From NCBI RefSeq assembly GCF_900102035.1, contig NZ_LT629689.1:744001-808000 (forward strand): a stretch of DNA of 64,000 bases, given 5' to 3'. How positions within the stretch are numbered: position 1 is the stretch's first letter; each line of letters opens with the position of its first letter. Position numbers and translations under genes: made by a program. Shown here in pieces: positions 6,588 to 55,963 of the stretch. The notes beneath the pieces were generated by a model. The model did not search any database and was not told the origin of the DNA. It saw only the letters and a program-made list of their open reading frames with translations. The DNA comes from Pseudomonas extremaustralis (lineage in GTDB: Bacteria; Pseudomonadota; Gammaproteobacteria; Pseudomonadales; Pseudomonadaceae).

Positions 6588-7984
6588 ACCTTGAAACGCT
6601 CCACCAGGCGTTCCAACTCATGCCCCAGCCGCGCCAGTTCGTTACTCGACGCGGCGGTTTCTTCGCAGGTGTTGGCCGTCTGGTCGGAGATGTCGCGCAC
6701 GTTGATCACCGCGCGATTGATCTCCTCGGTGACGGCGCTTTGTTGCTCCGCCGCTGTTGCGATCTGCTGGTTCATGGACTGGATGATCGAGACCTTGCCG
6801 GTGATGTTCTCCAGGGCGCTGACCGCGCGATGGGTGCATTCCACGCTGCTTTCGCTCAGTTGCAGGCTGCTGTCCATGCCCGAGGCCACGGCTTGGGTGC
6901 CGCTCTGGACCCCGGCGACCAGGCTCTCGATTTCTTCGGTGGAGCGCTGGGTGCGCAGGGCGAGGTTGCGTACCTCGTCGGCCGACTGGTTGAGTTCTGT
7001 GGCCAGGCGCTGGATCTGCGCGATGGCTTCCCCCACGATCTGTTCGCCTTCGCTGGCTTGCTGATCGGCGATGGACGCGGCGACGGAGGCCTCTTCGGCG
7101 TTGCGTGCAACGTTGTGTACGGTGGCCGTCATCTCGTTCATGGCGGTGGCGACGTGATCGGTTTCGGCTTTCTGGTTGTTGATGCCCGAATTGGTCTGCT
7201 CGGTCACCGCCGACAATTGTTCCGCGGCGCTGGCAACCTGGATGACGCCGGATCGAATGCCGTCGATCAGTTCGTGCAGGTTGAGCATCATCTGCTGAAG
7301 GCCGGATTGCAGCTGGCCCAGTTCATCGCGTCGGGTCACCGTCAGCTTCTCGGTCAAATCGCCCCTGGCGATGCGGTTCACTGCCTGGAGCGTGTGTTGC
7401 AGTGGGTTGACGATTTGTCGGGTGATGACCCATGCGGCCAGTGCGCCGAGTAACAGGGCCAGGGTCGCGACGAGGCTGAGCAGGGTTTTGGCGGACGCGG
7501 CATCGGTATCGCGTTTGGTATTTTGCGAGTCAATGAGTTTTTGCGTGGTGTCGAGCAACAGGTCGCCCAACTGCCCCATCCGTTTGAACAGGGACGCTTG
7601 GTCAACGTCAGGCGTGGCCAAGTCCTTCAGCAATTTCCCGTACTCATTGACGGCCTCTTGCTGTTGGCGGATCAGATCGTTATCCCGTGGGTCGATGAAT
7701 TGAGCCCTGATACGGTCCAGATGGGTCGCGAGGCGATCCAGGGTTTGTTGCAGCGGTTGGAAGGCGTCCGCTTGGGTGCTCTTACCGATGCGCAAACGGA
7801 TGATGCGCAGGTCTTTGGTGTAATCGCTGATCTGAGCAATTTCCTCAACCTTCAGCCCGCGATCGGTCAATTTCACCACGGCATACCAGCCGGTTGCGGC
7901 CAGTAATAACGTAAGCCCCAGCACCAGGCCGAATCCCCAACTTAATTTAGCGCTGACTCGGATATTACTGATCCAGCCGGACAT
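6584..7984 (-). CDS. Methyl-accepting chemotaxis protein lacking the signalling tip
   Basis: The 466-residue transducer has a first membrane helix at about 13-35, a periplasmic helical sensor of about 130 residues (four-helix-bundle type), a second membrane helix at about 167-187 and a HAMP domain (about 188-235). The coiled-coil hairpin follows, with methylation-helix sequence. The text passes directly from RLATELNQSA (326-335) to DEVRNLALRTQRSTEEIES. In normal receptors these are separated by about 50 residues containing the nearly invariant EQTNLLALNAAIEAARAGE tip that binds CheA and CheW. The frame is intact, so this is an internal in-frame deletion near 6980-6987. Such a receptor is not expected to couple to the kinase. 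It converges with the MFS gene. Confidence 0.9.
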   Translation of the reverse strand: MSGWISNIRVSAKLSWGFGLVLGLTLLLAATGWYAVVKLTDRGLKVEEIAQISDYTKDLRIIRLRIGKSTQADAFQPLQQTLDRLATHLDRIRAQFIDPRDNDLIRQQQEAVNEYGKLLKDLATPDVDQASLFKRMGQLGDLLLDTTQKLIDSQNTKRDTDAASAKTLLSLVATLALLLGALAAWVITRQIVNPLQHTLQAVNRIARGDLTEKLTVTRRDELGQLQSGLQQMMLNLHELIDGIRSGVIQVASAAEQLSAVTEQTNSGINNQKAETDHVATAMNEMTATVHNVARNAEEASVAASIADQQASEGEQIVGEAIAQIQRLATELNQSADEVRNLALRTQRSTEEIESLVAGVQSGTQAVASGMDSSLQLSESSVECTHRAVSALENITGKVSIIQSMNQQIATAAEQQSAVTEEINRAVINVRDISDQTANTCEETAASSNELARLGHELERLVERFKV

Positions 7985-8318
7985 ATGGCCTCCAGAAAGT
8001 TACGTAGGTTAATTGACTCGTGATTCCCTGAGTGTCGACCCTCAGACCCAATGCTTTAGTGCTAACAGGGCGGTCACGCTGTTTCAGATGATTATTCGGG
8101 CCTTGGATGAAAAAAATGGCACTGCGAGGGGCATTGCTTGAAGCAATGGCTGAAAGGTTACAGCCCGCTATTTGTCAGGCGTTGGCGCAGAGATAGGCTT
8201 TTAGGCCAAGTATCTTTTTCGAGACTAAGCGTGGTGTCTTGTGCTTTGGTCGAATATTAAAAAGGCCTGGGTTCTGGTGCGTGGCAATCGAAAAGAGTGC
8301 AGGGCAGTTACGGGGGAA
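7985..8318. other. Intergenic stretch, nothing recognised
   Basis: This 334-bp stretch lies upstream of the chemoreceptor gene and presumably carries its promoter. It has no convincing ORF, strong hairpin or repeat. Confidence 0.5.
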
Positions 8319-8552
8319 TTAGAACGCGATTGATTTTTTCAGATAAGAAAACAGTTGGTCCTGGCAAGCCCTGTATTGGTTTTCAAGGTGCTCGACTTCC
8401 CACATGCGCGCCAGCCATACCTCATCACAAGCGGCTTCCAAATGATTGACGGTGGTCATCCAGGCGGTTTGGGCGTTGGCCGTCGCTTGAAGTAATTGCA
8501 ACAACTCTTCACTTATCGCGAGGGTGTTCGATGCAGCGTGTATGGACGACAT
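8319..8552 (-). CDS. Small hypothetical protein (77 aa)
   Basis: The 77-residue, mostly helical, slightly acidic protein has no signal peptide or membrane segment. It contains two Cys and several Trp (AQTAWMTTVNHLEAACDEVW). It was not recognised. The start region has no clear ribosome-binding site, and the local base composition is somewhat less GC-rich than the flanks. It stands alone between the chemoreceptor and the sulfide operon. It could be a real small protein or a chance ORF. Confidence 0.4.
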   Translation of the reverse strand: MSSIHAASNTLAISEELLQLLQATANAQTAWMTTVNHLEAACDEVWLARMWEVEHLENQYRACQDQLFSYLKKSIAF

Positions 8553-9735: not shown

Positions 9736-10533
9736 TCAGGATCCAATCGCTTTGACCAGTAGGGCCACCGCCACCAGCATCGACACGATGGCAAACCCGC
9801 GTTGCAAGTGCGGGCCTGCCAGCCGCGCCGCGATCAGGCGTCCGCAGGCCATGCCGAACAATGCGCCCAGGGAGAACGGCAGGGCAACTGCCCACTGCAA
9901 ATGCCCGGCCGCCGAACTGGCGGCCACGCCGGACATCGACACCAGTGCGATCACCGCCAGGGACGTTGCCAGCACCGATTGCGCGGTCAAGTTGGTGTAG
10001 CGCTGCAACGCCGGCACCATCACGAATCCGCCGCCCACGCCGAGCAGGCCCGAAAGCCCGCCCGCGACCACGCCAGACACCGTGAGCGCCCAGGCGCAGG
10101 GCGCGGTCCAGTTCAGCTTTCCGCGCTGGGTGTCCAGCACGCACGGCGGCGGCTTGGTCGCGACCGGGGCCTTGGACGCCGGCAACGAACGTTTGAATAC
10201 CCGGAACGCCACGTACATCAACACGCAGGCAAACATGATCGTCAACGGACGATTCGGCGTGCGCTGCGCCAGCCACAAGCCCAGGGGCGAGCAGATGATC
10301 CCCGCGGTGGCGATCAACAGCGCCGCCTTGTAGCGCACGGTGCCGTTCTTGAGGCCCATCACCGCGCCCAGGGTCGCGGCCAGGCCCACCGCCAGCAAGC
10401 CGATGGGGCCGGCCTCGGCCATGCTCAGGCCCGCCCCGAACACCAGCAACGGCACCGCGAGGATGCCGCCGCCGGCGCCGGTCAGGGCCAGGATCACACC
10501 CACCGTCAGCCCCAGCAGTAAGACGATGATCAT
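9736..10533 (-). CDS. TauE/SafE (TSUP) family anion exporter
   Basis: The 265-residue inner-membrane protein has 7-8 predicted segments and the duplicated TSUP glycine motifs GAGGGILAVPLL (about 18-29) and GLLGVGGGFVMVPAL (about 162-176). TSUP members export sulfite, sulfoacetate and related anions. AAGGAGA precedes ATG 10533 at good spacing. It lies between the SQR fusion and the YeeE pair. It could remove the sulfite or thiosulfate made by persulfide dioxygenase and SQR, or import a sulfur anion; direction cannot be read from sequence. Confidence 0.83.
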   Translation of the reverse strand: MIIVLLLGLTVGVILALTGAGGGILAVPLLVFGAGLSMAEAGPIGLLAVGLAATLGAVMGLKNGTVRYKAALLIATAGIICSPLGLWLAQRTPNRPLTIMFACVLMYVAFRVFKRSLPASKAPVATKPPPCVLDTQRGKLNWTAPCAWALTVSGVVAGGLSGLLGVGGGFVMVPALQRYTNLTAQSVLATSLAVIALVSMSGVAASSAAGHLQWAVALPFSLGALFGMACGRLIAARLAGPHLQRGFAIVSMLVAVALLVKAIGS

Positions 10534-13238: not shown

Positions 13239-13342
13239 GGCCGTGATTTTGCCCTGGTAGCCTAATATCCAATTGATTTTATTGGGCTTTGTGTTTGTGT
13301 ATGGGGGTATTCAGGCCTGCATCGGGTGGACGTCTCTGCCAT

Positions 13343-13376
13343 TGGCAGTGCCTGTTGACAGAGGTGGCAGTGCCAC
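13343..13376. promoter_or_regulatory. Two enhancer-like sites (candidate FisR upstream activating sequences)
   Basis: TGGCAGTGCC occurs twice, at 13343-13352 and 13365-13374, exactly 22 bp apart. The second copy is extended to a perfect palindrome, GTGGCAGTGCCAC (13364-13376). The sites lie 105-150 bp upstream of the divergent sigma-54 promoter, the normal distance for an enhancer-binding protein, and just before the activator gene, so they may also autoregulate it. Confidence 0.6.
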
Positions 13377-13409
13377 AACAGGATGGAACGATGGATTCCA
13401 GGAGCCATG

Positions 13410-14735
13410 ATGAAGACTTTTCTGCCGACCCCAACCAACGCCGTCCCACGTCCGGATCAAGTGCAGTCGCTTGTTTCGTTTCTGGAGCACGAACCCAATC
13501 CAATGATCGTGCTCGATCCGAACTACAACATCCTCGCAGCCAACACCGCCTATCAGCGCCAGTTCGGCAGCGCTGACAAACCCTTTATCGGGCATAAGTG
13601 TTATCAGATCTCACATCATTACGACGTCCCTTGCGACCAGGCAGGTGAGAATTGTCCGATGAAAAAGGCCCAGGAAATGCGCGGGCCGGATCGTGTCCTG
13701 CACATTCACCACACGCCACGGGGGCCTGAACACGTCGATGTCGAGTTGCGGCCGATCCTCGACGAACACGGTGCGATCACCGCCTATGTGGAGCGCCTGA
13801 CCCTGGTGCGCAGTGCCTCGGCGCGTCCGAGCGACGAAGGCCTGGTCGGCTCTTCGCCGGCCTTCAACCTCGCCCTGGCGGAGCTGCAGCGCGTGGCGCC
13901 GTCCCTGTTGCCGGTGCTGCTGCTGGGCGAGTCGGGCACGGGCAAGGAGCTGTTCGCGCGGGCCGTGCATGAAACCAGCGAGCGCGCCGATGGGCCGTTT
14001 GTCGTGGTGGATTGCTCGGGCTTGACCGAAACACTCTTTGAGAGCGAGCTGTTCGGCCATGAAAAAGGCGCCTTCACCGGTGCTGTCACGCGCAAGCCCG
14101 GCCTGGTCGAGACGGCCCAGGGCGGCACGTTGTTCCTGGATGAGATTGGCGATGTGCCGCTGGCCATGCAGGTCAAACTGTTGCGCCTGATCGAGTCGGG
14201 TACCTATCGTCGGGTCGGCAGCGTCGAGACTTTCCACGCCAATTTCAGGTTGATTGCCGCCACCCATAAACCGCTGGAAAAAATGATGGAAAAAGGCGAG
14301 TTCAGGCAAGACCTGTACTACCGCATCAGCGCATTCCCCATTCACTTGCCGCCCTTGCGCAACCGGGTCGAAGACATTGCCCTGCTGGTGAATTCCTTCC
14401 TGCAACGTCGCGGTGCCGGCAAGCGGCGGCTGACCATCGACGCCGAAGCCCTGGCCGCCCTTGAGCAATACTCGTGGCCCGGCAATGTCCGTGAGTTACG
14501 CAATGTCTTGGAAAGAGCGAGTCTGTTCGCTGACGATGGGGTCATCCGCGCCATCCATTTACCCCAGGTTTGTGTGACGCCGCCCCCTCAGGCTGCGGCT
14601 TCGATGCCCCTCGACGACAGCTCGCTGGCGCAGACGCTGGCGACGTTCAAAGGTACCCGCAGCGAGTTGGCCAAACACCTGGGAATCAGCGACCGGACCT
14701 TGTACCGACGCCTGAAAGAACAAGGCCTGGCCTAG
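13410..14735 (+). CDS. Sigma-54-dependent sulfane-sulfur-responsive activator, FisR-like
   Basis: The 441-residue protein has a PAS-like sensor domain (1-135), an AAA+ sigma-54 interaction domain (about 148-375: GESGTGKE Walker A, GAFTGA loop) and a Fis-type helix-turn-helix at the C-terminus ([20 protein letters not shown]). In the sensor, three cysteines (64, 75 and 82 from ATG 13410) are spaced 11 and 7 residues apart, the same spacing as the Cys53/64/71 trio reported to sense sulfane sulfur in Cupriavidus FisR. AGGAG lies 5 bp before ATG 13410 and only 2 bp before ATG 13407. It is divergent from the pdo-sqr operon with a sigma-54 promoter and paired sites between them, so it should activate that operon when persulfides accumulate. 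Confidence 0.88.
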
Positions 14736-43772: not shown

Positions 43773-44450
43773 ATGAGCGCACTGATCGAAACCCGCGCCC
43801 TCACGCGCATGGACGAGCGCCGCCAGGTGCCCTTGCTCCAGCCCACGGATTTCACCTTGAACCGGGGCGACCGTGTGTCGATCACCGGTGCTTCCGGTTC
43901 CGGCAAAAGCGTGTTCCTGCGCATGCTGGCGCTGTTGGACGCGCCCAGTGCGGGGCAGATCCTGTGGAACGGCCAGGCGATCACCGACGCGCAGATTCCC
44001 CATTACCGCAGCCATATCAGCTACCTGTCCCAACGTCCGGCGCTGATCGAAGGCTCGGTCGAAGACAATCTGCGCTTTCCCTTCAGCCTCAAGACCCTGC
44101 GCAAGCGCCGTTTCGATATACATGCCGTCACCACACTGCTAGCGCATGCCGGCAAGGCCGCGGACTTCCTGGACAAGCGCGCCGCGGACTTGTCGGGCGG
44201 CGAGTCCCAGGTGGTGTCGCTGATCCGCACCTTGCAACTCGACCCCGAAGTGCTGCTGTTGGACGAGCCCACTGCGGCCCTCGACCCCACGTCCTCCCGC
44301 GAAGTGGAAGCGTTGATCAACGCCTGGTTCGCCGGCGACAAGGCCCGCGCGTGTATCTGGGTATCCCACGACTTGGAGCAGGCCCGGCGCATGAGCGACA
44401 TCCATTTGCAGATGAGCGCAGGCGTGTTGAGCGAGGTGGTCCGGCCATGA
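43773..44450 (+). CDS. fetA: ABC transporter ATP-binding protein, FetA-like
   Basis: The 225-residue ATPase has Walker A GASGSGKS, signature LSGGESQ and Walker B VLLLDEPTAALDP followed by SHDLEQARRM. The gene pair with the overlapping permease matches E. coli fetAB (ybbL/ybbM), implicated in iron homeostasis and oxidative-stress resistance. Its stop overlaps the fetB ATG (ATGA). Confidence 0.83.
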   Translation: MSALIETRALTRMDERRQVPLLQPTDFTLNRGDRVSITGASGSGKSVFLRMLALLDAPSAGQILWNGQAITDAQIPHYRSHISYLSQRPALIEGSVEDNLRFPFSLKTLRKRRFDIHAVTTLLAHAGKAADFLDKRAADLSGGESQVVSLIRTLQLDPEVLLLDEPTAALDPTSSREVEALINAWFAGDKARACIWVSHDLEQARRMSDIHLQMSAGVLSEVVRP

Positions 44451-45238
44451 ACTATCAAAACCTGAGCGCCCTGGACATGGGCATCGCCGCGTCGCTGATC
44501 CTGATCAACGGCGCGCTGTCTTTGCTGCTGCGCCTGGGCCTGGGCCGCCAATTGCTGTGGGCGGCGGTGCGCACGGTGGTGCAACTGTTGGCCATCGGTT
44601 ACCTGCTGGGCTGGGTGTTCGAATTCGCCTATTGGTACGTGGTGCTGCCGTTGATGTGCGCGATGACCCTGATTGCCGGCCTGTCCGCGGCGGGGCGCGG
44701 GCGGCGTACTTATCGGGGCCAGCGGGTCGACAGCATCCTGTCGGTGTGGGGCAGTTCGTGGCTGGTGACGGCGGTGGGGTTGTTTGCAGTGATCCGCATC
44801 CACCCCTGGTACGAGCCGCAGTACGCGATCCCGATCCTCGGCATGATCCTCGGCAATACCCTGACCGGCGTGTCCCTGGGCATAGAGCGCATGACCCAGG
44901 AACTGGCCACCGGGCGCAACACCATCGAGATGATCCTGGCCCTGGGCGGTACACGCTGGGAAGCGGCCCAGGAAGCGATCCGCCAGGCGGTGCGCGCCGG
45001 GATGATCCCGACGCTCAACCAGATGGCCGTGGTCGGCATCGTCAGCCTGCCGGGCATGATGACCGGCCAGGTGCTGGCGGGGGAGAGCCCGGTGGACGCA
45101 GTGCGTTATCAGATCGTGATCATGTTCCTGATCGCCGCATCGTCGGCGCTGGGCACAGTGGGGGCGGTGCTGCTCACGTATCGGCGGTTGTTTTCCAGCA
45201 GCCACAGGTTTCTGCGTGATCGGCTTGAGGAGCGCTGA
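44447..45238 (+). CDS. fetB: ABC transporter permease, FetB-like
   Basis: The 263-residue inner-membrane protein of the UPF0014/FetB family has about seven segments and the conserved block ERMTQELATGRNTIEMILALG then GMMTGQVLAG. It pairs with FetA, and iron export is the proposed role. The last 44 bp of the gene recur at 47419-47462 with only synonymous changes, marking the left edge of a low-GC insert. Confidence 0.85.
   Translation: MNYQNLSALDMGIAASLILINGALSLLLRLGLGRQLLWAAVRTVVQLLAIGYLLGWVFEFAYWYVVLPLMCAMTLIAGLSAAGRGRRTYRGQRVDSILSVWGSSWLVTAVGLFAVIRIHPWYEPQYAIPILGMILGNTLTGVSLGIERMTQELATGRNTIEMILALGGTRWEAAQEAIRQAVRAGMIPTLNQMAVVGIVSLPGMMTGQVLAGESPVDAVRYQIVIMFLIAASSALGTVGAVLLTYRRLFSSSHRFLRDRLEER
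45195..45238 (+). repeat. Left copy of a 44-bp direct repeat (3' end of fetB)
   Basis: This stretch ends at the fetB stop and is repeated at 47419-47462 with 39 of 44 identical bases. All five differences are synonymous in the shared reading SSHRFLRDRLEER-stop. It marks the point at which the low-GC segment joined. Confidence 0.8.
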
Positions 45239-45265
45239 GTGCCGTTAGCCCGGCCAATTAACGTG

Positions 45266-45285
45266 GGTAGCTAAAAAACGCTACC
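45266..45285 (+). terminator. Hairpin after fetB
   Basis: GGTAGC (45266-45271) and GCTACC (45280-45285) enclose an A-rich loop, 28 bp after the fetB stop. There is no U-tract, so termination efficiency is uncertain. Confidence 0.35.
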
Positions 45286-45476
45286 GTTCGTCGTATTAGT
45301 TATCGGATGCCTGAGTAAGCGCTCGGTTTTTATAAGCACTCTCCACAATTGAAGAACGTCTATGGATAGTTGTTAGGTGTTTGTAAATTCCTAATTTTTA
45401 TGGATGTTTAGTTGAGGCTTGTGACGGCTTGCAATATATGCTTGATGCGCAACTGTTGATGTTCTGATTTTGGTGA

Positions 45477-45784
45477 ATGAATTTTCCTATTTTAACTGAT
45501 GAAGTTTCCTGCGTTGGAAAATTCAAGAAGTTGCATTTTTTGTTATGGGAACTAAATTTGGATTGCCGCCTTTATATGAGACTCACCAAAACATCACCGA
45601 TGTGCAGATTGACGCCAAGGGACAAGAAAAAACTTCAAATGTCAGCTTCACACTGGCTGGGAATTTATCGGTATTGAAAGGCGAGAATATTTCAGGATAT
45701 TTCTATTCGAAGGCTTCTAAAGTTAATGGCTTTGACTGTGTGCTCAGTAAATATATGTCGCCTGGAATAGCGAAAAGAATATAA
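45477..45784 (+). pseudogene. Small unrecognised ORF, apparently frameshifted at a T6 run
   Basis: Two overlapping frames together look like one protein of about 100 residues. Frame one starts at 45477 (MNFPILTDEVSCVGKFKKLHF). After the six-T run at 45536-45541 the text continues well in the next frame (FVMGTKFGLPPLYETHQNI to 45784). The second part alone could start at ATG 45545 but lacks a ribosome-binding site. It is AT-rich and lies just before the ABC exporter genes. It could be a broken gene, a product of slippage, or a precursor-type substrate of the exporter; none of these is established. Confidence 0.35.
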
Positions 45785-45872
45785 ATTCAATAAATAAGTG
45801 CTCTAAAGACTTTGAATGTCAGATGCTGTCAACCCGCTTGAAAAAAATGGTGCCGTTTCCGTGAGGTGAATG

Positions 45873-46616
45873 ATGAGTTATTACTTTCTGGTTAAACCTC
45901 TTCTGTTGGCGAAAATTTTTATCAAGGAACAATTGAAAGAGCCAGTTGCACTGTTTTGGACTGTCCTGTCGCCGGTAGTTACATTTTATCTGATTAATTA
46001 CGCTGGATTGCCGGCAAGCGATAGGTCAGGTAATTATCTTTCAAGTACCTCGTGGTTTTATGCGTTTGTATCGTCCAGTGTGGCTTTTTTTGGTTTGGCA
46101 TTTTATATGGTTGGCCGGAGGGAAAGCGGGTTTTTACGGTCCTTCGTATACACGGCGCGTACAAAAATTATTTTCCTGGTCGGGCAGGTATTGGCCTATT
46201 CATTCATGTCGCTGGTCTATTGTGCAGTTTTTTATGTTTCTACTCGAGGTCACTATGGTGTTATGGGGGTGGCGGAGTTATTTATTATCGTCGGTAGGTT
46301 TTATATCTGTTTTCTAATGTTTTCCATAATGTCACTTTTGTTGACGCTGATTCCCTTGGGTTTTCAAAATGCAAACACTGTTTTTTCAATACTGTCTTTT
46401 GCGATGTTGGCGTTAGGAGTTTCTAGCGAGCGTTCTTCTCATCCCTTCTTTGAGCTGCTTGGTGTTTTCAATCCGATGGGGTGGGCGAATCACATTATGT
46501 TGATCGGCGTGGCTGAGCTGAAATATGCCGTCATGGCTATTGTTTTCTTATTTGGATGCTCGTTATGGATGACATTTAAATTCTTGCTTGTTAATCCAGT
46601 GTGGAGTCGTTATTGA
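45873..46616 (+). CDS. ABC-2-type exporter permease in a low-GC island
   Basis: The 247-residue membrane protein has about six segments. The first follows a short cytoplasmic stretch (AKIFIKEQLKEPVALFWTVLSP), as in ABC-2 export permeases. GAGGTGA gives the better spacing for ATG 45873 than for ATG 45870. Base composition is strongly AT-shifted (46021-46080 has 24 G+C of 60, against 43 of 60 at 44521-44580 in fetB). It overlaps the ATPase start. Such two-gene exporters carry lipids, glycans, drugs or peptides; the cargo here is unknown. Confidence 0.8.
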   Translation: MSYYFLVKPLLLAKIFIKEQLKEPVALFWTVLSPVVTFYLINYAGLPASDRSGNYLSSTSWFYAFVSSSVAFFGLAFYMVGRRESGFLRSFVYTARTKIIFLVGQVLAYSFMSLVYCAVFYVSTRGHYGVMGVAELFIIVGRFYICFLMFSIMSLLLTLIPLGFQNANTVFSILSFAMLALGVSSERSSHPFFELLGVFNPMGWANHIMLIGVAELKYAVMAIVFLFGCSLWMTFKFLLVNPVWSRY

Positions 46617-47326
46617 TGAAGCGGCTTATTGTAAATTCACTCGATGTCAGGTTTGCGCGCCACGTTTTGTTTAATAAGGCTTCGTTGAGAGTGGAGGCGG
46701 GTTCGATATCGGGTTTGTTAGGGCCTAACGGTTCGGGGAAAACCACCTTCTTTGATGTGGTGTGTGGTTTGAGAAAAGTAGATGGCGGTGACGTTTGCAG
46801 TTCTTTTTCAAAGCTGCTTTACCTGTCGCAAACCATTACGACACCCACTGTGTTTCGTATGTTTGATGTCTTTAGGATGATGATGCTGTTTTGTTCGGAG
46901 AACGAAATTACTCAACGGCACGCGCTGGAAAAAATTGAAAAATGGGCCCCGGGGGTAGCAGAGCGATATTGTGCAATCTGGAAGAAAAAATCCTCCCTTT
47001 GTAGTTACGGTGAAAAGCGTTGGTTTTTCACGTTATCCCTGCTTTCCGCCAACGCAGACTTCGTGATTTTGGATGAGCCTACGGCGGGTGTAGATCCAGA
47101 GTTTCGACATTACATCTGGAAATGCCTGGAGGGCGCAGCAGCAGAAGGCGTCGCGGTGCTGGTTTCGTCGCACAATGTCGATGAAATCGTTGCTCATTGC
47201 GATAACTTTTATATGTTGAGTCAGCAGCGTTTCAACCACTTCACTGATGCGAAAGGTTTTTTGAAGACATACGGTGCGTCCAGTTTGGATGAGGCCTTTA
47301 TTCATGCGGCGAGTTTGCCGCCGTAA
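46616..47326 (+). CDS. ABC exporter ATP-binding protein with degenerate signature motif
   Basis: The 236-residue ATPase has Walker A GPNGSGKTT, Walker B FVILDEPTAGVDPE and a switch His in SSHNVDE. The LSGGQ signature is replaced by CSYGE. ATG 46616 overlaps the permease stop (TGATG) behind GTGGAG. Low GC content and rare-codon use set it apart from flanking genes and point to transfer. It drives the adjacent ABC-2 permease. The gene ends exactly where a fragment of an arnT-like gene begins. Confidence 0.8.
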   Translation: MKRLIVNSLDVRFARHVLFNKASLRVEAGSISGLLGPNGSGKTTFFDVVCGLRKVDGGDVCSSFSKLLYLSQTITTPTVFRMFDVFRMMMLFCSENEITQRHALEKIEKWAPGVAERYCAIWKKKSSLCSYGEKRWFFTLSLLSANADFVILDEPTAGVDPEFRHYIWKCLEGAAAEGVAVLVSSHNVDEIVAHCDNFYMLSQQRFNHFTDAKGFLKTYGASSLDEAFIHAASLPP

Positions 47327-47410
47327 CGCCACGCTCCCATCCTCACGCGTGCAAAACAACCGCTCGCCGTTATCCGGCTGCGTGGTGACCATCTGATGAT
47401 CCGCACCCAG
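47327..47410 (-). pseudogene. 3' fragment of an arnT-like glycosyltransferase gene
   Basis: Read on the minus strand it encodes GADHQMVTTQPDNGERLF then REDGSVA, clearly homologous to the C-terminus of the intact gene at 52785-54308 (GADHQLISTQPDNGERLF, REEGSVA). The DNA over this stretch is visibly similar to about 52807-52894. Only the last 28 or so codons remain; the rest has been lost at the junction near 47411. It is a recombination remnant. Confidence 0.8.
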
Positions 47411-47418
47411 AACCCCCT

Positions 47419-47462
47419 CCAGCAGCCACCGGTTTCTACGCGATCGGCTTGAAGAACGCTGA
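47419..47462 (+). repeat. Right copy of the fetB 3'-end repeat
   Basis: It encodes SSHRFLRDRLEER-stop like the true fetB end at 45195-45238, with five substitutions that are all synonymous. The rest of that fetB copy is missing. Synonymous-only divergence indicates the copy came from a related strain's functional fetB and not from a recent duplication here. Confidence 0.8.
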
Positions 47463-47579
47463 TCGTCGAGGTGATTGTTTCAGTGGGTGAAATGCTCGAT
47501 TGTAAAACCTGGTGATTCCATCAGCCGGGGCAGCGGCGGAACATGCGTGGTGTCGAACCCCCACCTTCTGGAGCTTTTC

Positions 47580-48212
47580 ATGTCTACGCATCCGATCAAA
47601 CTCTATGGTTTCAAGCTGTCCGGCCACTCCCATCGGGTGGAGCTGATGCTGTCGCTGCTGGGGCTGCCCAGCGAATTCGTGCTGGTCGACCTCACGCAAG
47701 GCGCCCACAAGACTCCGGAGTTCCTCGCCACGTTCAACCGTTTCGGCCAGGTGCCGGTGATTGACGATAACGGCACCGTCCTTGCCGACTCCAACGCGAT
47801 CCTGGTCTACCTCGCCACGCAATACGGCAACGGTCAATGGCTGCCCGCCGACCCTCTGGGGCAGGCCCGCGTACAGCGCTGGCTGTCGGTCGCTGCCGGG
47901 CAGTTGCACGTCGGCCCTGCCAGCGCGCGCCTGGCCCTGGTGTTTGGGGCGCCGGTCGATCTCGACGCCGCCATCAGCCGCTCCCACGCCTTGCTCGCAG
48001 TGCTCGAGCAGCAACTGAGCCAGACGCGCTTCCTGGTCGACGAGCAGCCGAGCATCGCCGATATCGCCCTTTACACCTACGTGGCCCACGCGCCGGAAGG
48101 CAATGTGTCGCTGGCCGACTACCCTCATGTACGCGCCTGGCTGGCGAGCATCGAAGCCTTGCCGGGGTTTGTCGGCATGCCGCGCACGGCGGTGGGGCTG
48201 CAATCACAGTAA
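47580..48212 (+). CDS. Glutathione S-transferase
   Basis: The 210-residue protein has an N-terminal thioredoxin-like domain ([42 protein letters not shown] with the SNAI glutathione-binding turn) and an all-helical C-terminal domain (about 90-205; [18 protein letters not shown]). ATG 47580 has GGAG six bases upstream. It conjugates or reduces with glutathione; the substrate is unknown. It is followed after 18 bp by a LysR gene. Confidence 0.87.
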
Positions 48213-51850: not shown

Positions 51851-52777
51851 ATGAGCAACCCCGTTGCCCCCGAGCCCCTGGTTCGTCTGCTGGGCCTGTG
51901 CAAGACCTTTGGTGCGCAATGCGCGCTGGATCAGGTCAGTCTGGATATTTATCCGGGCGAGGGCGTGGCGTTGCTGGGGGCCAACGGTGCAGGCAAGTCG
52001 ACGTTGGTGAGAATCCTCAGCGGCGCCCTAGCGGCGGATGCCGGGGAGCTCTGGGTCGATGGGCAGCGCCAACGCTTCACTTCGCCATTGTCGGCGCGGC
52101 GGGTCGGCATTGTGGCGGTGCATCAGAGCCTCGACGATGCCATCGCCCCGGGCCTGAGTGTGGCCGAGAACCTGTTGCTCGATGAGCTTGGCCAGCCCGA
52201 CGCCGATTTTCTGCTCAACCGCAAAAGCCTGTTGCACCGCGCCGAAGCCATTGCCGCCGGGCTCGGCCTGGACTTGCCGTTGCAATACCCAGTCGAGCGC
52301 CTGGGCCGCGCCGACCGCCAATTGCTGGTGCTGGCCCGTGCGTTCGCGCTGCAACCCAGGCTGCTGATCCTCGACGAACCCACCGCCGCCTTGCCTGAAG
52401 CCGATGCCGAACGTCTGCTCGGCCTGATCGACAGTCAGCGCGCGCGCGGGGTGGCGATTCTGTACATTTCCCAGCGCCTGTCCGATCTGCAACGGGTCAC
52501 CAACCGCGCCATCGTCCTGCAAGACGGTCGGCTCACCGGCGATCTCAATACCCGCCACTTGCCGAGCGCGGCCTACACCCTGTTCGGCGATATCGCCGAA
52601 AACCCGTCGGTCGCCCCGGACCAAGCCTTGCCGGTACCCTTCCTGGAGCGCTTTACTCGCGCCGGGTTCATTCGCAATCGTGCCGAGGGGCGGGCGGTGC
52701 AGGCGCAGGTGGCGGGGCTGGGCAGCAGCGTGGCGCCGGCCGACGTGCTGCCCTCTGGCAAAACCGAGCGCACCTGA
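51851..52777 (+). CDS. Orphan sugar-type ABC ATPase, half length
   Basis: The 308-residue protein corresponds to the first ATPase domain of RbsA/XylG-type sugar ABC proteins, which are normally about 500 residues with two domains. Walker A is GANGAGKST and Walker B LLILDEPTAALPEAD. The signature is degenerate (LGRADRQL for LSVGQQQ). Residues from about 235 show no second domain. No permease or binding protein is nearby. It is either a truncated remnant or a reassigned protein. It converges with the ArnT-like gene 7 bp away. Confidence 0.7.
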   Translation: MSNPVAPEPLVRLLGLCKTFGAQCALDQVSLDIYPGEGVALLGANGAGKSTLVRILSGALAADAGELWVDGQRQRFTSPLSARRVGIVAVHQSLDDAIAPGLSVAENLLLDELGQPDADFLLNRKSLLHRAEAIAAGLGLDLPLQYPVERLGRADRQLLVLARAFALQPRLLILDEPTAALPEADAERLLGLIDSQRARGVAILYISQRLSDLQRVTNRAIVLQDGRLTGDLNTRHLPSAAYTLFGDIAENPSVAPDQALPVPFLERFTRAGFIRNRAEGRAVQAQVAGLGSSVAPADVLPSGKTERT

Positions 52778-52784
52778 GGCGCGA

Positions 52785-54308
52785 TCAGCGCGGTGAGGCC
52801 GGGATGAACGCCACACTGCCTTCCTCACGCGGCTTGAACAGCCGCTCGCCGTTGTCCGGCTGGGTGCTGATCAACTGATGATCCGCCCCCAGGTAGGCCA
52901 ATGGCGTCGGGTCGTCCTTGGAGAACGGCGCGACGATAATCGTGCGCTGCGGGTCGAAGTGTTGGCCGCTGGTGGTGTCCAGCCAGGCCATGAACGCGGC
53001 GCTGTCGCCCTGGCGCGGGAAGTCCTGGGTCTGGGCGACGTAGTAGAACGGCGGGCCGCCATTCTGCAGGTACATGGGCAGTTTGTTGTCGACTTCCACC
53101 AGCACCATCTGCCATTGGTTCCAGGGCGCGATTTTGACCGCTTGGGCCTGCACGTCCTGGGCGAAGCGGGTCACGCCGCCGTTGCCGTTGGACCAGGGAT
53201 AGGCCACGCCGAGGATCAGCAGCAACAGCGCGGCGGTGAAGGCAAAACCTTTCTGCCAGCGCGGCCCGCTGGCGGTTTTGTTCGCCAGCCGTTCGCTCAG
53301 CCACCACGCGCCCAACAACTGCGCGAACGGCACCAGTGGCAACACGTAGTAGCTGCGCCGGCTGCCACTGGCGGTAAAGAACACAAACAACAGGCCCAGG
53401 CCCCATACCAGCCAGCGCACATTGGGCGGCGTCTGGCGCCAGTGCCGCACCGCCAGCCACAGGCCGAGCAGCCAGCACGGTACCCAGGGCAGGGTGTAGG
53501 CCGGCAAGTAGATGAGGTAGGTGTAGATCGGGCCCATGTGGTCGAACGGGTCGAAGAAGCGCACCACGTTTTCCCGGAACACCAGGGCCAGGCCGCTCTC
53601 GCCATAGGTCGGTGCGCCGTACACGTGGGACAGCACGAACGGCGTGGCATACACCGCCGCGGCGATCAGCAGCGCCAGCAGCAGGCGCAGGTTGAGGTGA
53701 CGTTTGTAGCGTTGTTCGCTGAGTACATGCGGCAGCAGCACTAGGCCGGGCAGCACGAAGCCGATCAGGCCCTTGAGCAGGGACGTCAGCGCCAGTATCA
53801 GGAAAAACACCGTGTAGCGTCCCAACCGCGTGTCATCCGGCCCGCGCCAGTACCACCACACGGCTGCCAGCACGCCGCATACGGTGAGCACGTCGGCCGT
53901 GGCCACTCGCGCCCAGAACAGAAAGTAGAAGGTGGTGGCGAGCATCCAGCCGGCGATCAACCCCGTGCCCTTGGCGAACAGGCGTTCGCCGATCAGGTAC
54001 ACCAGCCACACGCTCAGCCAGGCGCCGATCACCGATGGCAGGCGCAACGACCAGGGACCGAGGCCGCCCATCAGGTGGGAAAAACCGGTGATCAGCCAGT
54101 AGGAGGGCAGGGGTTTGTCGTAGTACGGCACGCCCTTGAGGTACGGGTCGAAATAGTCGCCGCTTTGCAGCATCTGCAAGGCGATGTTCGCCCAGCGGGT
54201 TTCCGGGCCCCACAGGTCGCGGGCGCCGAGGCCAGTGAGCAGCAACAAGGCCGAGACGCCCAGCAAGAGCAGCAGGGCGCCGCGCTCGGTCCTGAAAAAT
54301 CGAAGCAT
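52785..54308 (-). CDS. ArnT-like (PMT/GT83 family) membrane glycosyltransferase
   Basis: The 507-residue protein has about twelve membrane segments. The first periplasmic loop reads ARDLWGPETRWANIALQML with the acidic residue pair typical of PMT enzymes, then YYDKPLPSYWL. It is related to, but shorter than, the ArnT encoded upstream and overlaps its stop by 3 bp (TGATG). It probably moves a lipid-linked sugar onto lipid A or another envelope acceptor. A fragment of a close relative lies at 47327-47410. Confidence 0.8.
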   Translation of the reverse strand: MLRFFRTERGALLLLLGVSALLLLTGLGARDLWGPETRWANIALQMLQSGDYFDPYLKGVPYYDKPLPSYWLITGFSHLMGGLGPWSLRLPSVIGAWLSVWLVYLIGERLFAKGTGLIAGWMLATTFYFLFWARVATADVLTVCGVLAAVWWYWRGPDDTRLGRYTVFFLILALTSLLKGLIGFVLPGLVLLPHVLSEQRYKRHLNLRLLLALLIAAAVYATPFVLSHVYGAPTYGESGLALVFRENVVRFFDPFDHMGPIYTYLIYLPAYTLPWVPCWLLGLWLAVRHWRQTPPNVRWLVWGLGLLFVFFTASGSRRSYYVLPLVPFAQLLGAWWLSERLANKTASGPRWQKGFAFTAALLLLILGVAYPWSNGNGGVTRFAQDVQAQAVKIAPWNQWQMVLVEVDNKLPMYLQNGGPPFYYVAQTQDFPRQGDSAAFMAWLDTTSGQHFDPQRTIIVAPFSKDDPTPLAYLGADHQLISTQPDNGERLFKPREEGSVAFIPASPR

Positions 54309-55963
54309 CAAGGCACCTGTGGGTAGAGGATGAGTTCCAGATGGCCCTTGGCATAGCGTTTGCCACCCAGCGGCAGTTGCCCGGCCTCGCGCATTTCACT
54401 GGTGCTGGCGACCTGCAGTAGCACGCCGACCGGACCGTGGCGGCGTGCTTCGTCGAGCCAGGCCTGGACCTGGTCCAATTCCACTTTGCGATGCACGGAA
54501 CCGGCGTATTGCAGGCCGTATTGCAGTTCGCCCTCGGTGTTATACAGCGTCACGTCCGGGCGCTTCAGACGCCAGGCCAGGGCGCTGGCGTTATCCAGGG
54601 TATTGCTCAGCAGCGCTTGGGTTTGCTGCAGTTCATCCAGGTGCTCCAGCACAAACTGGTCGGGCATTTCGTTGTCCGTGACCTGCGCCGGCATGCTGGC
54701 CGGCAGCAGGATCACCAGCACGCCGATGCCCAGCGCCGGCATGGCCCACAGCGTCAGCGGGCGCACGGCTTGCAGCAGGTGGGCGAGCACCCACACCAGC
54801 AGCACGATAAAGGCCAGGGACAGGCTGAACATCTCGGCATGGCTGTGGCCGTACAGCGGTCTGGCGACTTGCAGGTAGATCAGGCCGACCATGGCGGCCA
54901 GGCCGATCACCGCATTGATCACGCCATTGAGGCACAGGGCGCGGGCTTTGCCGCGGTTGAGCAGGTCGACCAGGGTGTGCCCCATCAACAAGGCCAGGGG
55001 CAGCAGGCACGGCATGATGTAGGTCGGCAGTTTGCCGTTGCTCAGGCTGAAGAACCCCAGCGGCAGTAGCAGCCACAGGGTCAGGAAGCCGATCGACGGC
55101 TGGCGTTTTTGCTTCCAGGCCTGTTGCAGCGTATTGGGCAGCAGCGCGGCCCAGGGCAGGCAGGACACGACCAGAATCGGCAGGAAAAACCACCACGGCC
55201 GCACGTGTTGCGCGTTGTCGGCGCTGAAGCGGCGAATGTGTTCGTTCCAGAAGAAAAAGCGCCAGAAGTCCGGTTCCTGCAGATGGATCGCCATGACCCA
55301 CGGCAGGCACACCAGCGCGGCCACCCCCACCGCCAGCGGGCCGTACAGCAGCAACTCCCCCAGGCGCCGTTGCCAGAGCATGTACGGCACGGCAATCAGC
55401 ACCGGCAATGCCCAGGCCAGAAAGCCCTTGGTCATGAACCCCATGGCGCAGGCCAGGCCCAGCACGGCCCAGGCGATCAGACGGTGGCGCGTGGTGGTGG
55501 TGTCGAGGGCGAACCACAGGGCCACCAGGCTGAGGTTGACCCACAGGGTGAATTGCGGATCGAGGTTGGAATACCCGGCTTGCCCGGCCACCAGGCCAAA
55601 GCTCAGGTAGAGCAGGGCGCAGGCGAAACTTTTGCGTGGGTCGTTCCACATCCGACGGGCAATCAGGTAGGCCAGCAATACGCTCAAACCGGTGGTCAGG
55701 GCCGAAGCGATGCGCACGCCGAACAGGTTCTGGCCAAACACCGCCTGGCCCAGGGCGATCAGCCAATAGCCGCCGGCCGGTTTTTCGAAATAGCGGATGC
55801 CCATGAAGTGCGGCGTCACCCAGTTGCCGCTCAGCAGCATCTCTTGGCTGATCTGGGCGTAACGGGTCTCGTCCGGGGTCCATAAGCCGTGCAGGCCCAG
55901 GGGCAGCAGATAAAACGCGACAAAGGCGAGTAATAAAATCGGCAGGGGTTTTAATCGGGTCAT
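54308..55963 (-). CDS. arnT: Lipid A 4-amino-4-deoxy-L-arabinose transferase
   Basis: The 551-residue protein matches ArnT in length and landmarks: [20 protein letters not shown] in loop 1, [11 protein letters not shown], and a C-terminal soluble periplasmic part. It transfers L-Ara4N from undecaprenyl phosphate to lipid A, lowering its negative charge and giving polymyxin resistance. AAGGAG precedes the ATG. The sugar-making genes arnBCADEF are not in this window, so it must be supplied from elsewhere. It lies downstream of a histidine-phosphatase gene and is coupled to an ArnT-like gene. Confidence 0.88.

Follow-up and report, generated by a model that had tools for sequence, protein, structure and literature searches.

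The window analysed here is a stretch of 64,000 nucleotides of Pseudomonas extremaustralis DNA (NCBI RefSeq assembly GCF_900102035.1, contig NZ_LT629689.1, positions 744,001 to 808,000 of the forward strand). Downstream of the fetA and fetB genes, in the interval that separates fetB from a gene of the GST family, it carries a small island with two exporter genes bracketed by two copies of the fetB 3′ end (Table 1). We identified these genes as mcbE and mcbF, which in a microcin B17-like cluster form the immunity/export pair. The GC content, calculated in 400-base windows, is 0.64-0.69 in the flanks and 0.37-0.52 between the fetB copies.

Table 1. Features of the mcbEF island and its surroundings, with coordinates given as positions in the window.
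Feature	Coordinates	Strand	Basis or remark
fetA, ABC ATPase of the FetAB pair (left flank)	43773..44450	+	Pfam ABC_tran; best NCBIfam match FetA, under its cut-off
fetB, complete; final 45 bp are repeat copy 1	44447..45238	+	PF03649, 288 bits; TIGR00245 under its cut-off
fetB 3′ end, copy 1, encodes SSSHRFLRDRLEER-stop	45194..45238	+	Repeat alignment, codon comparison
Stretch at left joint, 42 bp	45239..45280	.	Similarity to mcb upstream regions becomes clear only from ~45281
Kept region upstream of mcbA, likely mcb promoter region	45281..45580	+	Aligns with the 6/16 mcb loci carrying the anchor motif
mcbD (YcaO) remnant, ~last 100 codons, two frames	45578..45869	+	tblastn of intact McbD (residues 303-403, two pieces); own-genome search
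mcbE, intact, membrane subunit of the McbEF immunity/export pump	45870..46616	+	tblastn
mcbF, intact, ABC ATPase	46616..47326	+	PF00005
arnT2 3′-end fragment, 28 codons, open frame	47325..47410	-	83% to own arnT2, 52807-52892
fetB 3′ end, copy 2	47418..47462	+	Repeat alignment; runs on into fetB-GST spacer as in relatives
Native-type fetB-GST spacer	47463..47579	.	Aligns with empty sites L036-L039
GST-family gene, right flank	47580..48212	+	Pfam GST_N/GST_C
Resident arnT2, intact, without adjoining mcb genes here	52785..54311	-	Contrast L101, where mcbF is next to arnT2

The gene for the McbE-type membrane protein immediately precedes the ABC ATPase gene, which is the arrangement of an McbEF pair. 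No Pfam match was obtained for the mcbE product; tblastn against annotated E. coli plasmid mcbE gave 28.7-29.8% identity over 95% (best 20 of 136 records). The nearest McbE proteins are one that is 98% identical, encoded on a 2291-bp contig, and one that is 84% identical, from a record named Pseudomonas grimontii. A further protein, P0054 (184 amino acids, a relative of P0001), diverges past ~150 residues in a frameshift-like manner, due either to decay of mcbE or to a sequencing error on a short contig.

To the left of the mcbD remnant, ~300 bp of DNA align with the sequences upstream of mcb genes at six loci of relatives (L101, L061, L064, L103, L106 and L060) and share with them the conserved blocks CCGTTTGTCG and TTTCCTA. 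This upstream region switches directly to the last ~100 codons of mcbD, beyond which mcbE and mcbF are intact. The small broken open reading frame (ORF) at 45545-45784, recorded in a preliminary description of this DNA, lies mostly within the mcbD remnant.

We searched the whole genome for the products of the missing genes. McbA, McbB and McbC had no match, McbD was represented by the two-piece remnant only, and the mcbA leader motif was absent from all six frames of the window. The same searches detected McbB in relatives G303, G017 and G285 and both McbC and McbA in G303, G017 and G121, and they were silent in the toxin-less relatives G301 (McbA, McbB and McbC) and G067 (McbB and McbC). The features of a microcin B17-like biosynthetic cluster, i.e., mcbA and the McbB, McbC and McbD enzymes, are thus not found here, and the mcbE and mcbF frames are open. 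Since McbA, McbB and McbC were unmatched in searches that detect them elsewhere, this genome retains the immunity/export pair mcbEF but not the toxin that belongs to it, and the pair is an orphan relic of a microcin B17-like cluster. When mcbE and mcbF were compared with 14 loci (the mcbE row of L103, a gene with an in-frame stop, being excluded), synonymous sites were at or near saturation; the ratio of nonsynonymous to synonymous substitution rates therefore speaks for long-term constraint, not for selection after toxin loss.

The genus sample comprised 398 genomes (397 plus the one studied here), and a long mcbEF match was found in 16 of the 397 others. Fifteen of these relatives have the pair on the arnT side: it adjoins arnT2 in nine and arnT1 in five, and in L060 other ORFs occupy the ~2.6 kb between it and arnT2. 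At the sixteenth locus, L066, no arnT gene was found within the 17 kb examined. The window's mcbE product is 60-67% identical to its counterparts at 14 arnT-side loci and 56% identical to that of L066, and it matches L058 in two pieces; for mcbF, the values are 74-80% at 15 arnT-side loci and 65% at L066. The 16 loci exclude twelve more distant McbEF-like pairs (L088-L099), four of which show part of mcbD.

In the full clusters of relatives, a precursor gene with a Gly/Cys-rich core is followed by genes for McbB, a SagB-like dehydrogenase and a SagD-like YcaO protein and then by mcbE and mcbF. At L056, for example, McbB is encoded beside the mcbEF pair (TIGR04424, 213 bits against a cut-off of 65) together with SagB-like and SagD-like genes, both under their family cut-offs. 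Gly/Cys-rich mcbA is present at six loci. Seven of the 16 relatives keep mcbB, mcbC and mcbD (mcbD has an internal stop in G303 and is split in G052). The other nine lack them, one retaining fragments of mcbB and mcbC; mcbE is broken in two of the nine and an open frame in seven. The upstream anchor motif, present at six of the 16 loci, lies 3.26-3.28 kb from mcbE in the three that have all toxin genes. The distance is 0.40 kb in the window and takes the values 0.18, 0.43 and 0.54 kb among the toxin-less L060, L106 and L103. As can be seen, the toxin-less loci and the window show similar reductions, with the upstream region retained in each.

Gene order is most informative in G303 (locus L101), where DUF1835, fetA, fetB, GST, LysR, LysR, PNPox, mcb, arnT2 and arnT1 follow one another within ~15 kb and are oriented relative to each other as in the window. 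The order fetB-GST-LysR-LysR-PNPox-mcb-arnT2 is likely ancestral. Low GC as a sign of recent foreign origin was set aside: at the arnT locus of L060, the one other species for which it was computed, GC is 0.38-0.53 over mcbEF, and composition therefore cannot date the insertion in the window.

Repeats were also seen around mcb genes elsewhere. In G164 (L061), positions 8084-8353 and 13299-13568 form a fresh 270-bp direct repeat (99.3% identity) of arnT1 and mcbF 3′ ends that flanks a complete mcb cluster. In G099 (L060), mcbEF is flanked by repeats of 117 bp (86%) and 41 bp (90%) located at 7609-7766, 9745-9785 and 10261-10377; the copy near mcbF resembles the other region minus an internal deletion.

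The preliminary description, which was made from the sequence alone, had noted AT-rich DNA with a two-gene exporter and a small broken ORF between two 44-bp fetB ends sharing 39 bases, with all five changes synonymous. All of these elements are present. What it did not recognize is the mcbEF identity of the exporter, the mcbD origin of most of the broken ORF and the arnT2 fragment at the right border. The repeat extends to 45 bp (45194-45238 versus 47418-47462) with 40 of 45 bases identical, and codon comparison of both copies bore out that 5/5 differences are synonymous (P = 0.0005-0.0023 under random substitution, a range that spans transition-bias settings and the choice of starting copy). 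Over the first 42 bases of copy 1, copy 2 matches at 37, and no other match at 28/42 or better was found on either strand of the window. Identity to 28 other fetB ends is about the same for the two copies, with means of 33.0/45 for copy 1 and 32.7/45 for copy 2. As copy 2 lacks its own start, each sequence has probably served for most of its history as the end of a functional fetB gene.

The right border of the island is a composite joint between arnT2 and fetB 3′ ends. The mcbF stop codon directly abuts 86 bp of antisense arnT2 3′-end DNA, which reads as an open ArnT2 C-terminus and is followed by fetB copy 2. In L060, similarity of arnT2 to the window continues to 47424, through a CCAGC stretch that the arnT2 genes of L060 and L065 share with fetB. 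The fragment differs from the resident arnT2 at 15 of 86 bases. Measured against 14 other loci, it is nearer than the resident gene in four cases, equal in four and farther in six; a decayed copy would be expected to be clearly farther from nearly all loci, and the fragment therefore does not behave as a drifted resident copy. Because neither the fetB nor the arnT2 fragment behaves like a decayed resident sequence, two lineages probably contributed to the island, to judge by these sequence comparisons. No match spanning the joint was found among the 398 genomes besides the window itself.

We next compared the fetB-GST slot across genomes. Among the 21 slots, which are those retrieved and not a random sample, seven are empty (108-136 bp), eleven contain a module of LysR and SDR genes (L040-L043, L045, L046 and L049-L053) and three contain other DNA. 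Ten of the eleven modules include an ADH gene and two a gene for a 450-amino-acid transporter. Another four loci, in which GST does not adjoin fetB, were counted apart; two of them have the module. The LysR, SDR and ADH genes of the slot module are located next to mcb instead in L061. A second fetB end (at least 30/42) was present at none of the 28 other loci with a readable fetB end, 27 of which cover at least 3 kb downstream and one just 249 bp. The empty sites with a single fetB end that the preliminary description had proposed to look for thus exist (7/21 slots). Other cargo between the same fetB-end flanks, its mark of an insertion hotspot, was seen at none of the 28 loci, and relatives do not all share both copies and the same cargo, the pattern that it had set against its own proposal. 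The slot is variable, yet not by way of repeat-flanked cargo. A multi-cargo, repeat-flanked hotspot is unsupported, given that a single type of LysR/SDR module recurs in 11/21 slots and that no second fetB end was found at the 28 loci.

We consider it fairly probable that the island is an orphan immunity relic, left by DNA of a related strain whose integration was homologous at the fetAB end and illegitimate at the other. The ancestral mcbABCDEF cluster would have been convergent with the 3′ end of arnT2, as it still is in relatives. DNA of the related strain with its fetB (copy 1), its mcb region and its arnT2 end would have entered an ancestor of this genome, whatever the uptake route, and homologous recombination would have inserted it at the fetAB end. 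At the opposite end, an illegitimate joint may have formed within the resident fetB, 45 bp ahead of its stop codon, perhaps at the shared CCAGC. In the product, the donor fetB would be followed in turn by mcb DNA, the tail of arnT2 and the tail of the resident fetB. Deletions before or after integration would have removed mcbA, mcbB, mcbC, most of mcbD and any donor genes from fetB to mcb, leaving mcbE and mcbF intact behind the old mcb upstream region. The predicted pump formed by their products most likely still exports microcin made by neighbours. Homology-facilitated illegitimate recombination has reportedly been studied in Pseudomonas stutzeri. The suggestion of the preliminary description that a segment from another lineage joined here with its own fetB end is probably right, the gene ends having evolved under selection; plain homologous exchange at conserved gene ends, the simpler route it preferred, is unsupported because the right joint fuses arnT2 3′ DNA to fetB 3′ DNA.

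Several observations weigh against this origin. Among the 398 genomes searched, no other one with mcb directly beside fetB was found. The sample includes neither a conspecific strain nor one of a very close species, and the nearest fetB in it is ~91% identical. A search for the donor by local similarity (25 loci, 16 bins) returned no consistent nearest relative. One-sided import offers no explanation for the left joint at 45239-45280. At the right joint, the illegitimate junction is observed, and the CCAGC microhomology is found only in the arnT2 of relatives: the resident arnT2 reads CCAAT at this point, so the microhomology is weak and its role at the joint plausible rather than demonstrated. 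Seven unassigned bases separate the arnT2 match from the fetB copy 2 match, and the position of the breakpoint is therefore approximate. Finally, copy 1 is nearer than copy 2 to 15 of the 28 other fetB loci, copy 2 to seven, with six ties, a mild lean that is compatible with drift of copy 2.

The same order could have arisen by tandem duplication within one lineage, from fetB to arnT2 and including mcb, after which the first copy lost GST to PNPox and the second lost mcb. The island is colinear with L101 in order and orientation, a duplication yields exactly an arnT2-fetB joint, and the fresh arnT1/mcbF repeat of G164 around an mcb cluster shows that similar repeats occur. Two extra deletions are required, however, and both gene-end fragments look like those of another lineage rather than decayed resident copies, so a duplication would also need later replacement by foreign DNA. 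We regard this course as unlikely, although its standing is helped by the ability of transformation to generate tandem duplications as well (PMC3784515).

Ordinary recombination would suffice in this genome if the fetB-GST interval had been replaced by that of a donor already holding the whole island and its joint. The slot does differ between species, and the 98% identical McbE is known from a contig of just 2291 bp. Such a replacement would only mean that the joint arose in a different strain, a donor of this kind was not found among the 398 genomes searched, and we consider it quite improbable. Many integrase islands are flanked by direct repeats of a gene 3′ end, and the direct fetB repeats around the cargo, in a slot that varies among species, recall a site-specific mobile element that targets and rebuilds the fetB 3′ end, as the preliminary description had also proposed. 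Yet integrase and transposase families were unmatched in the three island ORFs, and no site-specific recombinase was found among these and the flanking genes scanned (the remaining genome was not searched for one). The lack of a second fetB end at the 28 other loci supports neither such an element nor a repeat-flanked hotspot, the arnT2 fragment sits between the cargo and the repeat, and the cargo lies on the arnT side in 15/16 relatives. The proposal is thereby largely refuted, and we rejected a site-specific element at fetB as scarcely credible.

Compared with known systems, the import and reduction of mcb DNA proposed above is mostly a well-resolved case of known types of evolution, not a new system. 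Soil Pseudomonas microcin B17-like clusters, as described in an eLife 2021 study (PMC8719888), encode McbE- and McbF-like immunity proteins, and no McbG was found in the strains studied. Relatives of our genome have the same mcbA-F set, including McbB of TIGR04424; the window, in contrast, lacks mcbA, mcbB and mcbC, retains a remnant of mcbD and has the pair at fetB, not at arnT. With the E. coli plasmid operon, the window shares an McbE homologue (29-30% over 95%) followed by an ABC ATPase, but not the biosynthesis genes. Export by McbEF is part of self-immunity, according to PMC7680869. Microcin B17-resistant E. coli with an orphan mcbF orthologue and mcbG, reported in PMC10926693, likewise have immunity genes without biosynthesis genes, but that locus has a transposase sequence in its flank and mcbG, whereas in the window an mcbE-mcbF pair is embedded in a scar of chromosomal recombination. 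For orphan immunity arrays of the Vibrio cholerae type VI secretion system (T6SS), an origin by homology-facilitated illegitimate recombination has been proposed (PMC5361080). There too the toxin was lost, immunity was kept and a displaced 3′ gene end was left; the toxin class is different, and the presumed anchor in the window is an unrelated gene pair, fetAB. No literature on mcbEF-only loci in Pseudomonas was found among the matches listed, which covered titles and the start of abstracts, with subscription papers mostly outside the scope.

An unexplained repeat thus becomes a readable recombination scar, and its composite of gene ends is a usable signature of one-sided integration without integrases. 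The locus is also a clear added case of immunity outliving its toxin, as 9/16 mcbEF relatives also lack mcbB-D. Orphan pumps, if working, would let non-producers coexist with microcin producers. It is conceivable, though doubtful, that microcin immunity pairs of this Pseudomonas group have repeatedly been kept behind the old upstream region as toxin genes were shed, and that one-sided integration, with homology at one end and an illegitimate joint at the other, has moved them about between fetB and arnT, leaving stacked gene 3′ ends as scars. The window, the G164 270-bp repeat and the G099 repeats would then be three snapshots of one process that proceeds without a mobile-element enzyme.

Next to the resident arnT2, at 51851-52777, lies an ORF for a sugar-type ABC ATPase of 308 amino acids, of which relatives keep ~290 residues near mcb or just 47.

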